DNA of 53,809 nt. Origin: a virus. The number at the start of each line of letters is the position of its first letter. Positions within the stretch are counted from its first letter, which is position 1. Position numbers and translations under genes: made by a program. Location: IMG/VR virus record IMGVR_UViG_3300032214_001510, positions 1-53,809 of that record. One strand, given 5' to 3'. Shown here piece by piece: positions 742-10,300 of this stretch. The notes beneath the pieces are model-generated. The model was given only the letters and a program-made list of their open reading frames with translations, made no database searches and had not been told where the DNA came from.

Positions 742-758
742 GGGGGCATCCTGCCCCC
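742..758 (+). terminator. perfect 7-bp hairpin between cassettes 2 and 3
   Basis: GGGGGCA (742-748) pairs perfectly with TGCCCCC (752-758) around a TCC loop. The next bases are TGCTACAAT, so the stem abuts the -10 element of the next promoter. This is the cleanest example of the hairpin-then-promoter layout in the island. Confidence 0.65.
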
Positions 759-790
759 TGCTACAATTCTCTCAGTTCACAAGACACCCC
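759..790 (+). promoter_or_regulatory. cassette promoter and leader 3 (extended -10)
   Basis: TGCTACAAT (759-767) is an extended -10 element (TGN plus TACAAT). It is followed by TCTCTCAGTTCAC and a short leader to the ATG at 791. The -35 region is occupied by the hairpin, which fits a promoter that relies on the extended -10. Confidence 0.65.
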
Positions 791-5048: not shown

Positions 5049-5450
5049 ATGCCTGTACAAAGGATATCAAGGGGATTTAAAGATATTAGTTTATCTTTTG
5101 ATCCCCATCCTGTCACTAAAGATTTGCCAATCATTAAAAATGAATCGGCAATTATCCGTGCAGTTAGAAATTTGGTTCAAACAGTTCCAACAGAAAGAGT
5201 TTTTAATTCTTCTCTTGGGTCTGATATAACACAAAGTCTGTTTGAATTTGTTGATTATGGTACAGCAGCAGTTATTCGTGAACAAATTATTGCATCAATT
5301 AAAAATTATGAACCTAGAGTTACTGGTTTAATTGTTGAAGTGGCACCAGAACCAGACTCAAATACTTTTACAGTTGATATATCTTTTGATATTCTTGGTC
5401 AAGAAACTCCAGCACAACAATTCACGTTCATATTAGAGGCAACTAGATAA
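5049..5450 (+). CDS. 25: gp25-like baseplate wedge protein
   Basis: The 133-residue protein belongs to the GPW/gp25 family, small wedge components that initiate sheath assembly at the baseplate in contractile tails. The typical features are the start FKDISLSFDPHPVTKDLPIIKNESAI, the central VFNSSLGSDITQSLFEF (residues 51-67) and the helix AVIREQIIASIKNYEPRV (74-91), ending in beta strands. T4 gp25 has 132 residues, so length is normal. It is the first gene of the baseplate operon and stops one base before gp6 starts. Start codon choice is fixed by the late promoter 24 bases upstream. Confidence 0.9.
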   Translation: MPVQRISRGFKDISLSFDPHPVTKDLPIIKNESAIIRAVRNLVQTVPTERVFNSSLGSDITQSLFEFVDYGTAAVIREQIIASIKNYEPRVTGLIVEVAPEPDSNTFTVDISFDILGQETPAQQFTFILEATR

Positions 5451-5451
5451 A

Positions 5452-7347
5452 ATGCCTTTTACAAAATTTACAAATCTAGATTTTGATCAAATAAAAGCGT
5501 CCATCAAAGATTATCTTCGTGCAAATTCCAATTTCACGGACTTTGACTTTGAGGGATCAAACTTTTCAGTTTTAATTGATACTCTAGCGTACAACACATA
5601 TATTACTGCATTCAATACCAATATGGTTGCGAACGAGGCATTCCTCGATTCTGCAACCATTAGAGAAAATGTTGTTTCTCTTGCTCGAAATATTGGTTAC
5701 GTACCTCGCTCTAGAACGGCGGCAAGGGCACAGGTTTATTTTAGTGTGCCAACATCATCTACATCATCTACACTTACCTTACAGGCGGGACTGGTGTGTG
5801 TAGGCAACACAAATGACAGTTCATATATTTTCTCAATTCCAGAACCAATTACAACAACAATTGTAAATGGCGTTGCTAATTTTGGCACAGCAAGTGAACC
5901 AATTAGTGTATATCAAGGGACATTCCTTAAAAAAGAATTTGTTGTAAATGGATCCCTTGATCAGAGATTTATTTTAGATAACTCGTTTATTGATACTTCT
6001 ACTATTCTTGTTAAAGTTAGAGGACTATCGGACGGTGGAGAAGGTAAAGAATATCAACAAATTGATAATATCTTAAATGTTAAGAGTGTATCTGAAACTT
6101 ATTTAATTCAGGAAATTAAAGACGAAAAATACGAATTGCTATTTGGTGATGGTATTTTTGGTAAGAAACTTGAGAATGGATCTATCATCACAGCAACTTA
6201 TATTGTAACTGATGGCTCGGATGGAAATGGTCCAAGTTTATTTGATTATTCTGGAACATTAAGAGGTGCTGTTGGTGAACTTGTGATTCCAACAGGAAAT
6301 ATTGCGGTTAATACTGTTAGAAATGCTCAAGGTGGTGGAGAAATAGAATCTATTGATTCTGTAAAATATTTTGCACCAAGATTATACTCATCACAATATA
6401 GAGCAGTTACTAGCAGAGATTATGAATCGGTAATACAAACGATTTACCCAAATACAGAATCTGTTTCTGTTGTTGGTGGAGATGAATTAAGTCCACCACA
6501 ATACGGGAAAGTTTTAATTAGTATCAAACCAAAAAATGGAGATTTTATTTCTGATTTTGATAAGCAATTTATATTGAGTAAGTTATCGGGTTATTCTCTT
6601 GTTGGCATCAAACAAGAAATTATCGATCTTAAAGTTCTCTATGTTGAACTTGACAGTTATGTTTATTATAATTCTTCTCAAGTCACTAACATAGAAAACT
6701 TAAAATCAACGGTATTTAATGTAATTGATGCATATTCCAAGTCTGTTGATGTAAATAAATTTGGTGGAAGGTTTAAGTATAGTAAGGTACTACAATTAAT
6801 TGATAATTCTGATGTTGCTATTACATCGAATATCACCAAAGTTATTATGAGAAGAAATCTCAATGCCCAAATCAACAGATTTGCCCAATATGAATTGTGT
6901 TTTGGAAATCAATTTCATATTAATTCAAGTGGTTTTAATATTAAGAGCACTGGATTTAGTATTTTTGGAGAGAATAATACTTGTTTCTTAACTGATACTC
7001 CAAACAGTAATGGTAGTGGAATTATATCAATTGTAACTTTAGATGAGGGATCTACTCGGTATAGAGTGGTTAATAATAAAGTTGGTACAGTTGATTATGA
7101 TAAGGGAGAAATCTTTTTAGGACCAGTTCAAATTACTTCGACTATTTTACCAAATAACGTTATACAAGTTCAAGCATATCCAGAATCAAATGATGTTGTT
7201 GGATTAAAAGATCTATATCTATCATTAGATGTTTCTAATAGTAAGATAAATATGGTTAAGGATACCATATCTTCAGGTGAGCAAATATCAGGTGTCGGAT
7301 TTAAAGTTACATCAAGCTATTCAAACGGGGAATTAACGAGGAGATAA
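5452..7347 (+). CDS. 6: gp6-like baseplate wedge protein
   Basis: The 631-residue protein corresponds to T4 gp6 (660 aa), which forms the inner wedge ring of the baseplate. The N-terminal part (DFDQIKASIKDYLRANSNFTDF; then FSVLIDTLAYNTYITAFNTNMVANEAFLDSAT, about residues 38-69) is the conserved baseplate-J-like core, followed by RENVVSLARNIGYVPRS. Middle residues 210-330 contain the ELLFGDGIFGKKL segment common in J-like proteins. The gene sits between gp25 and the giant wedge protein, as expected in cyanophages. The C-terminal 200 residues are beta-rich and less recognisable. Confidence 0.9.
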   Translation: MPFTKFTNLDFDQIKASIKDYLRANSNFTDFDFEGSNFSVLIDTLAYNTYITAFNTNMVANEAFLDSATIRENVVSLARNIGYVPRSRTAARAQVYFSVPTSSTSSTLTLQAGLVCVGNTNDSSYIFSIPEPITTTIVNGVANFGTASEPISVYQGTFLKKEFVVNGSLDQRFILDNSFIDTSTILVKVRGLSDGGEGKEYQQIDNILNVKSVSETYLIQEIKDEKYELLFGDGIFGKKLENGSIITATYIVTDGSDGNGPSLFDYSGTLRGAVGELVIPTGNIAVNTVRNAQGGGEIESIDSVKYFAPRLYSSQYRAVTSRDYESVIQTIYPNTESVSVVGGDELSPPQYGKVLISIKPKNGDFISDFDKQFILSKLSGYSLVGIKQEIIDLKVLYVELDSYVYYNSSQVTNIENLKSTVFNVIDAYSKSVDVNKFGGRFKYSKVLQLIDNSDVAITSNITKVIMRRNLNAQINRFAQYELCFGNQFHINSSGFNIKSTGFSIFGENNTCFLTDTPNSNGSGIISIVTLDEGSTRYRVVNNKVGTVDYDKGEIFLGPVQITSTILPNNVIQVQAYPESNDVVGLKDLYLSLDVSNSKINMVKDTISSGEQISGVGFKVTSSYSNGELTRR

Positions 7348-7348
7348 T

Positions 7349-10300
7349 ATGATTACAACTGGATTTGATGCGAGAGTTAAAGTCGGTCAAATAATCGAAA
7401 GTCAACTTCCAGAGTTTTTACTTAGCGAAAGCCCAAAAACGGTTGACTTTTTAAAACAGTATTATCTTTCACAGGATTTTCCTGGTGGGCCAGCGGATAT
7501 TGCAGAAAATCTAGACTTATATCTAAAGCTTGATAATCTTACACCAGAAGCAATGTCTGGATATACGACATTGACTTCTGCGGTTGGATTAAATGATACT
7601 GAAATATTTGTAGATAGTACTAAAGGTTTTCCACCTAAAAATGGATTACTAAAAATTGATGATGAAATTATCACATATACGGAGTCTACATCAACAAGTT
7701 TTACTGGATGTGTTCGTGGATTCTCTGGAATTACAAGTTGCCATTCATCTTTAGATCAAGAAGAATTAGTCTTTTCAACTTCAGTAGCCAGCACTCATCA
7801 ATTATCTGCTAAAGTTGAAAATTTAAGTATATGTTTTCTTAGAGAATTTTATAAAAAATTAAAGTCTGCACTTACACCAGGATTAGAAGATGTTGAGTTT
7901 GTTGCAGGTCTTGATGTAAGTAATTTCATAAAAGAAGCAAGAGTATTTTATCAATCAAAAGGAACTGAAGAATCATTTAGAATACTTTTTAATGTATTAT
8001 TTGGAGAAACTCCAAAAATAATCAATTTAGATAATCTACTGCTTAAACCATCCTCTGCTCAATATATTAGAAGAGCGGTTTTAGTAGCAAAGAATATTAG
8101 TGGAGATCCTCTTAACTTAATTGGTCAAACTCTTTTTAGAAAAAATGACCTGGAAACAAGAGCTTCTATCTCTAACGTAGAAATTTTATCTAGAGCGGGA
8201 GAAATTTTTTATAGAATAGATCTTTTCTTAGGTTTTGCTGATACTGATAGTATTCAGGGAACATTTACGATTACACCTAAAACTAAAGCAATTGGAAATG
8301 TTGCTGTTGATTCTTCAGTTATTACTGTAGATTCGACTGTAGGATTTCCAGAGTCTGGTACTATTATTTCTGGTCAAAATAATATCACTTATAGTGAAAA
8401 AACAATTAATCAATTTTTAGGATGTGAAAATATTAATTTTAATATTTCAACTACAGATGATGTTATCTCTGATGATTTATATTTTGGATATGAAAATGCA
8501 GATACATCCAAAATATGCGAACTAAGAATTACTGGAGTTTTATCTAATTTTATAACAAAAACTAAAAATCAGGAATTGGATGAAGGTGAGAAAATAGCAG
8601 TAAAAAATATTGGTATTTCAATTAAAAATCCACCAGAAAATAAAACTTTTAAAGAAATATTTGCTAATTCGTGGATTTACAATACAAGTGTTAGATATCA
8701 AGTATCAACAATTAGTGGTTCTTCTTTCACTTTATCGAGTTCTATTGATAAATCTAGTTTAAAAGAAGGTGATTTAATAGACGTTATATTAAGAGGATCT
8801 GTAAATAATGTAGTATTTTCAGATGCATTAGTATCGAATATTAATTATTCAAACAGTCAAATAACATTAGATAATCTTATTGGATTTGTAGCTAATCCTT
8901 CTCTTTCATATGATATTAGAAGAAAATTAAATAAAGCATCTTCATCTGGATCTCCTATACAATATGGAAATAATATTGTTACTTCAGATATTCAAAACGT
9001 TTATGTGGATAATGATGATTATTTTTATGTTGCATCTAATTCATTTCCATCATATTCTATTGATGTCCAATTAACTGAATCTGTATTATTAAATGCAGAA
9101 GGAGGAACTTCTCTACAAGGATTAGATATTCAGACTTTACTTTATCATGTTCTATCTTTTTCATCTGCAGTTCCTTTCGCAACAGGGGATGAAGTTGTTT
9201 ATTTTCCAGAATCAACACCTATAGAAGGACTACAACCTGGACTTTCTTACTTTGTAAAAGTTGATGATGTTTTTACAAATAAAATCACTCTTTATAATTC
9301 TAGATCATTTATTGAGAGTGGAGATTATGTTGAGTTTTATGCTCTCCCATTAGGAGTTGGTGGAAAGCATTCGTTTGTTTTAAAAGATCAAAAAGATCGC
9401 TTTTTAAAACCTCAAAAAAATCTTATAAAATTTTTAGGAAAACAAGATATCATTAATGGTCTGAATGAAAAAACACAACCAGGAAAAGTAGCTATTCTTG
9501 CAAATGGCGTTGATGTTATCAATTATAAAACAAATGATAAGATTTATTATGGACCAATAAAAAATATTACTCTATTTAATCAAGGTGTGGATTATGATGT
9601 GATAAATCCACCAACAATTGAGGTTATAAATCCATCTGCTGGTGGAACAAAAGCACTCATCCAACCAGTTGTTAGTGGAAATGTTAAAAAAGTTTTTATT
9701 GATCCGCAAGATTTTGATATTGAGAAGGTAATTTCGGTTACAATTGCAGGTGGGAATGGAAATGGATGTACTTTAGAACCTGTTTTAGAAAAAAGATATA
9801 GGGAAGTTGAATTTGATGCAAGGCGACTGGATTTTGCTGGTGGAGTTAGTGTTGATGCAGAAACTATCACATTTTTAACAAATCACAATTTTAAAAATGG
9901 GGAGCAAGTAGTATACAATCCAAATGGTAATGCACCACTTGGATTGGGAACCTATCTTGGTGGTAATTTTGATCAGAACTTAACATTGGTTAGTGGGGCA
10001 AGTTACTATGTTAAGTTGGTTAATAATAATACTATTCAGTTATATCCTAGATTTAATGACTACATTTCGGGAATTAATACTATTGGATTTACAACTATAA
10101 GTGCCGTTGGTATTCATAAGTTTAGAACCTTTGATGCAAAAACAACTATTAAAGAAATAAAAGTTACAAATCCTGGATCAGGATATCAAAATAGAAAATT
10201 ATATATTAAACCAGAAAAAGTTATTATTACTCAAGATTGGATAACATTTGATAATCATAATTTTAACGATGGTGATTTGGTTGAGTATCAATGTGTTGGT

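Follow-up and report, generated by a model that had tools for sequence, protein, structure and literature searches.

A hairpin-promoter junction in a cyanophage GC-rich island and its place in a probably shuffled array of small genes

The hairpin and promoter at positions 742-767 are one of hundreds of look-alike junctions in GC-rich islands of cyanophages. Across 148 gene-pair types, the promoter core of these junctions is where gene neighbours change, and the place of change can be put to about 20 bp. Our interpretation is that 742-767 is probably one junction in an array of separately promoted small phage genes that is rebuilt by shuffling, and we give this reading of the sequence comparisons a probability of roughly two in three. 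The stretch analyzed here, called the window, is a 53.8-kb virus record. Features with coordinates in the window are on the plus strand.

The island and its phage

The window comes from a T4-like cyanophage with 34% GC, and its GC profile reveals an island of about 61% GC at approximately 200-2430. This island holds nine small promoter-headed ORFs and occupies the same position in relatives. It lies directly upstream of a module comprising genes for a glycosyltransferase and AdoMetDC, the baseplate gene gp25 (at 5049) and gp6 (at 5452). The genes from 2784 on match those of Synechococcus and Prochlorococcus myoviruses, the best being S-SRM01. Homology and synteny are those of Kyanoviridae (T4-like cyanophages), with S-SRM01 and others matching from 2421 on and the gp25/gp6 order kept. 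The segment 3' of the last island gene (2350-2425) is very GC-rich, with a possible hairpin (TGCCCCCGTGCGGGGTGCGC), and is followed by AT-rich genome; it is possibly the right edge of the island.

The junction under study separates two small genes. The upstream one (530-718, stop codon TGA at 716-718) encodes 62 aa beginning MRYNPATDRAL, and belongs to a family, F7, that recurs in nine arrays. The downstream one (791-925) encodes 44 aa and belongs to family F3, which has 13 members in arrays. The 3' untranslated stretch of the F7 gene (719-741) carries a recurrent module, GGCACTGGCACA, that was recognized from repeats. This module, in the forms GGCACTGGCACA and TGAGGCACTGGCACA, follows stop codons at 454-469 and 717-732 of the window and in 27 related junctions. 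The form TGAGGCACTGGCACA is common to several unrelated array genes and often lies 5' of a hairpin.

The original prediction placed a perfect 7-bp stem at 742-758 and TGCTACAAT at 759, and this is exact to the base. The arms are GGGGGCA (742-748) and TGCCCCC (752-758), with TCC as the loop. The promoter core (759-774), defined from the consensus of 196 junctions and the seam analysis below, consists of the extended -10 element TG-C-TACAAT (759-767), a TCTCTC discriminator and a presumed start at the A at 774. TGCTACAAT thus has TGn directly before the -10 hexamer, as expected of an extended -10 sigma-70 promoter. There is no -35 box, the 17-bp position being occupied by CACGGG. The following leader (775-790) is C/A-rich, has no Shine-Dalgarno sequence and, according to the junction comparison, moves with the downstream gene. 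The promoter lies directly 3' of a stem-loop between genes, which is an arrangement expected of a PeSL (promoter-early stem-loop).

With up to one mismatch, TGCTACAAT occurs 18 times in the window against an expected 17.8; it is thus not enriched, and was rejected as a signal by itself. The longer CTACAATNCTCTCA occurs solely within the island, with four matches at up to one mismatch and none for the reversed-pattern control.

Related junctions and promoter type

We scanned IMG/VR with GCTACAATNCTCTCA and then built a PWM from the matching loci. In dozens of related IMG/VR contigs, small genes at the corresponding locus are preceded by the promoter TGCTACAAT(A/T)CTCTCA. In many of these contigs the element recurs at intervals of 200-500 bp within an island of about 60% GC that is surrounded by lower-GC sequence, and the PWM finds up to 12-13 copies. 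In the fetched loci there are 311 PWM matches scoring above 15, and none in reversed sequence. Another pattern that we tried, ACTGGCACAN{8,35}CTACAAT, was so loose that its numerous matches, in scattered contigs, were uninformative.

Our junction set comprises 196 non-redundant junctions. Their order is a stop codon, an optional hairpin, TG (in 62%), TACAAT, (A/T)CTCTC, an A that is the presumed start, a leader, and ATG (in 193 of 196). The leader is 15-22 nt long and 75% A+C, and has a Shine-Dalgarno-like 4-mer in only 18 of the 196. The stop codon often abuts the promoter; the median distance between the two is 11 nt in junctions without a hairpin and 33.5 nt in those with one.

It had been proposed that the stem replaces the -35 region. 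However, across the family it is the TG that trades off with a TTGAC box: TG is present in 9 of 29 promoters that have TTGAC at a spacer of 15-20 bp, versus 113 of 167 that do not (Fisher p = 3e-4). Leaving aside boxes that a stop codon would explain, TTGAC is found 13 times at spacers of 16-19 and 7 times elsewhere. The hairpin loop itself contains TTGAC in 15 of the 57 hairpin junctions, e.g., GGGGCAGG-ttgacc-CCTGCCCC. Given the trade-off and these loops, the stem is not a general substitute for the -35 box, and often frames it. Both the trade-off and the -35 spacing are what would be expected of real sigma-70 promoters, to judge from sequence.

Similar elements were observed in other phages. 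Five copies of TATAATACTCTCA occur on one strand in a 12-kb stretch of S-SRM01 (MW015081.1, 49123-61594), which suggests that CTCTCA 3' of the -10 element is a feature of cyanophage early promoters more widely. Two AT-richer contigs (L131, 7042-10305, and L231, 5074-7693) have repeated units of TANAATACTCTCA with a TTGTCAG-like -35 box, and seem to represent a distinct group of phages whose promoter is similar. Our literature search turned up nothing about early promoters of cyanophages.

Gene neighbours change at the promoter core

The ORFs flanking the junctions were clustered into 82 families, and 186 junctions represent the 148 gene-pair types. When two junctions share only the upstream gene, family-averaged identity is 0.66 up to the core and 0.30, the background level, in the next gene. 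When only the downstream gene is shared, identity is 0.28 before the core and 0.68 after it. The hairpin region follows the upstream gene and the leader follows the downstream gene. When two junctions have an upstream similarity of at least 80%, their downstream sides are unrelated in 64% of cases; in the reverse direction the figure is 42%, versus 0-7% within genes at comparable distances. Because junction pairs are not independent events, these figures characterize the present sample and should not be read as rates.

Ungapped mapping of break points was discarded, as it is inflated by 1-nt indels. Mapping with a k-mer filter confines breaks to the promoter by construction, and we therefore rely on the within-gene control. 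The core is a point of exchange between unrelated genes. A seam at this position is no proof of recombination beginning in the core, since selection may eliminate breaks that fall within genes. Homologous recombination in the core would be the cause of the breaks under the shuffling interpretation, against which it must be said that a shared core of 20 bp is short for homologous recombination.

Hairpins upstream of the promoters

We counted perfect compact stems, because MFE separates promoters from shuffles only weakly. A strong perfect stem within 45 nt upstream of the promoter is present in 17.9% of the 196 junctions, the corresponding values being 2.3% for dinucleotide shuffles and 1.0% for coding controls. 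This result was replicated with loci fetched via the neighbouring glycosyltransferase gene (22.5%, versus 2.6% for shuffled sequence and 0% for coding sequence). Hairpin centres peak within 20 nt before the promoter core. At such a distance, a perfect stem with the strength of that at 742-758 is found in none of 195 ORF controls and in roughly 1% of dinucleotide shuffles.

The original prediction included equivalent but weaker hairpin-promoter pairs elsewhere in the island. When each junction was folded, two modest hairpins were upheld, but one hairpin is offset from its promoter and one pair folds no better than shuffled sequence. At 207-240 a stem does exist (207-212/218-223, z = -2.8), but its end and the -10 element are 11 nt apart, and the promoter lacks TG (CCCTACAAT); the promoter core there is TACAATACTTTCA (235-247, PWM score 31.5). 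At 469-503 there is a 6-bp stem with a 9-nt loop (AGGGTC/GACCCT, 468-488, z = -0.4), but again no TG (CTCTACAAT), and the core is TACAATTCTCTCA (498-510, PWM score 29.6). The pair at 1853-1879 is at the shuffled level (z = 0.06), and the core TGCTACAATACTCTCA at 1871-1886 (PWM score 40.4) has no convincing hairpin upstream. For 2065-2104, the fold yields a 5-bp stem (z = -1.46), GGGGG-TGA-CCCCC at 2070-2082, whose loop is the stop codon of the upstream gene; the core TGCTATCATTCTCTCA follows at 2096-2111 (PWM score 26.4), so that the whole feature spans 2066-2111. A diverged core, TAGGATACTCTCA, lies at 1430-1442 (PWM score 12.4).

The strongest hairpin of the island had been overlooked. It is GGAGGGG-GATGA-CCCCTCC (1153-1171, z = -4.6), and is followed by CTTTTGCTTC and the -10 element TATACT (1182-1187), the feature as a whole occupying 1153-1187. 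In a terminator scan of 150-2600 it is the sole terminator-like hairpin with a T-run.

What the hairpins might do

The hairpin at 742-758 would be the 3' end of the upstream transcript, acting as a terminator or a stabilizer. On a stronger reading of the original prediction, hairpins would be true terminators that insulate each gene, and hairpin plus promoter a full PeSL. Hairpins do directly follow stop codons, and a T-run at 1153-1171 and an ATTTTG tail in S-PM2 (L006:7892) are consistent with termination, as is the absence of Rho from cyanobacteria (PMC13289151). However, the intrinsic-type cyanobacterial ends in that study were defined by a hairpin plus a U-tract (PMC13289151). The stem at 742-758 is followed by TGCTACAA, which is not a U-tract, and so it does not have the sequence of a canonical intrinsic terminator. 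The 8 nt after the stem usually contain 0-3 T, and among 35 strong hairpins just 2 exceed 2 T there; most hairpins thus lack a U-tract and are not canonical terminators. Moreover, a hairpin is directly before the promoter at 18-29% of the 196 junctions, and some 70-80% have no strong hairpin, the stop codon often abutting the promoter, which argues against insulation of each gene. We therefore consider general termination unlikely, 1153-1171 being the place in the island where the terminator sequence is present. A REP-like hairpin that stabilizes the 3' end of the upstream mRNA without terminating it would agree with GC-rich stems that have no U-tract and move with the upstream gene, and such stems stabilize ends in E. 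coli; however, they are largely absent in the cyanobacterium studied in the same work (PMC13289151), and we hold this role at less than even odds.

Two further explanations were considered. The inverted repeat could act as DNA, i.e., as an operator around the -35 box that is bound by a dimeric regulator, and the central position of TTGAC in the inverted repeat at the loop-borne boxes described above is compatible with this. However, an operator should keep its sequence, and the arms vary widely while pairing is kept; in addition, it is invariably the 5' arm that carries the G-run. We regard an operator as very improbable. Alternatively, the inverted repeat at 742-758 could have arisen by chance in DNA that is rich in GC, and the promoter alone would matter. 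When 716-768 is folded alone (-16.5 kcal/mol, z = -1.47), 17 of 200 shuffles are equally stable, so the hairpin by itself is only modestly unusual. Its stem directly abuts the TG, which is unusual given that the usual gap is 5-7 nt, and all 8 of the other copies of the upstream gene among those listed have a different 3' end. On the other hand, a homologous gene pair at another locus (L223) has a different and equally strong hairpin, GGGGGTC/GACCCCC, and hairpins are enriched about 8-fold over shuffles across the junction set. Chance is thus quite improbable in our view.

The array occupies a single locus

In multi-unit loci that extend more than about 2 kb past the last unit, the array always precedes the same module: a 57-aa ORF, a glycosyltransferase, in most cases S-adenosylmethionine decarboxylase, and then gp25 and gp6. 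Two single-unit loci (L133 and L195) extend 2.8 and 4.5 kb, respectively, without this module, and their units may be chance matches. Among 57 loci that were fetched without using the motif, 43 have a GC island at the same place, and 32 of these 43 contain at least one unit. Related genes are at the same place in S-PM2, S-RSM4, S-H9-2 and S-WAM2.

It had been suggested that the cassette works wherever it lands. Instead, in the multi-unit loci that extend far enough, the array is at one place upstream of gp25. In two contigs longer than 200 kb, the motif is clustered in one place, with one isolated TATAATACTCTCA elsewhere, and a dispersed array was rejected for these contigs. In 386 cyanobacterial genomes we found ten single matches and no array, and a host origin was rejected on this basis; a scan of genome contigs likewise gave scattered single matches only, among the matches listed.

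Ten related units (TANNNT, 5-7 nt, AGTTCA) are packed into 3 kb next to gp25 in the cultured phage S-PM2. One of them, GGGAGCAGG-ttgacg-CCTGCTCCC, has a 17-bp spacer to TATACT. In the corresponding region (L006, 6749-7852), the public annotation misses several promoter-headed ORFs, e.g., 7057-7260, 7297-7512 and 7583-7852, and places a minus-strand gene over one missed array ORF.

The array genes mostly have no Pfam match or informative PHROG match. One family (F14; L138, 5028-5249, and four other arrays) resembles HicA-type toxins (PHROG 18430 at 8e-17), and its match to Pfam HicA is below the curated cut-off. Another (F10; L190, reverse strand, 2323-2664) has an HExxH motif (HELIHC) and weak matches to metallopeptidases.

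Proposed mechanism

We infer promoter activity, early timing and a role for the hairpin from these comparisons. Each small gene would be started at the core by host RNA polymerase, using a host-type sigma-70 promoter with either an extended -10 element (TGnTACAAT) or a -10 element plus a TTGAC -35 box. The promoter, sited immediately 3' of the previous stop codon, would be followed by CTCTCA and a C/A-rich leader of 15-22 nt. At a minority of junctions, the upstream gene would end in a GC-rich hairpin that adjoins or overlaps the promoter, and this hairpin, as part of the 3' end of the upstream transcript, might finish or protect that transcript. Exchanges within the core would then swap genes, each of which would keep its promoter because it is flanked by the same core of about 20 bp.

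A more ambitious proposal is that this is a dedicated shuffling array, built on an element of about 35-60 bp with three jobs. The hairpin would end the upstream gene, with whose last codons and stop codon it would sometimes overlap; the loop or the following TG would be the upstream contact of the promoter; and the 20-bp core would be the seam for homologous recombination. This proposal is possible, but we hold it with less than even confidence.

Comparison with known systems

The PeSLs of T4-like phages (Arbiol 2010, Comeau 2014), which are also cited in PMC4503421, reportedly pair an early promoter with a stem-loop that terminates transcription, and serve as points of exchange. The array resembles them as a set of small stem-loop/promoter composites between variable small genes, with exchange points and several composites per hypervariable region. 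However, its stem-loop is optional and mostly has no U-tract, and its promoter is centred on the -10 element, with TG or a loop-borne -35 box, and is not a T4 early promoter. It also lies entirely in one GC-rich island by gp25, and the hosts are cyanobacteria. The comparison with PeSLs in the original prediction therefore holds for the extended -10 promoter at a gene junction, the enrichment of hairpins upstream and the exchange seam, but not for the terminator at most hairpins. For the latter reason we do not classify the array as a PeSL; by analogy, its exchange of genes suggests that it may work like one.

Extended -10 sigma-70 promoters (TGnTATAAT) have TG one base upstream of the -10 element and need no -35 box. 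The array promoters share this TG and, across the set, its trade-off with the -35 box, but differ in the conserved CTCTCA 3' of the -10 element and in their fusion to a preceding stop codon or hairpin. Intrinsic terminators and REP-type 3' hairpins are similar in being GC-rich hairpins directly after a stop codon, but the array's hairpins mostly have no U-tract, and they overlap or abut the next promoter.

The ORFanage of S-PM2 (ORFs 017-050) consists of small orphan genes that are frequent in freshwater metagenomes and whose order is not conserved (PMC4503421). Few stem-loops were found in it, and PeSLs were considered and judged unlikely or too sparse (PMC4503421). Like the array, it groups small orphan genes together in the genome of a T4-like cyanophage. 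However, it is in another region of the genome, and the array on the gp25 side of the same phage is dense.

Implications

These results address the open question of how the small genes next to the structural genes of T4-like cyanophages come to be re-ordered time and again, by placing the exchange seam to about 20 bp. Because a related array is present in the cultured phage S-PM2, the idea of shuffling is directly testable. The junctions also provide a naturally occurring set of compact promoters from a group of hosts without Rho, and in some of these promoters the -35 box is placed in a hairpin loop. If the three-job element were true, any gene flanked by the core would slot in ready for expression.
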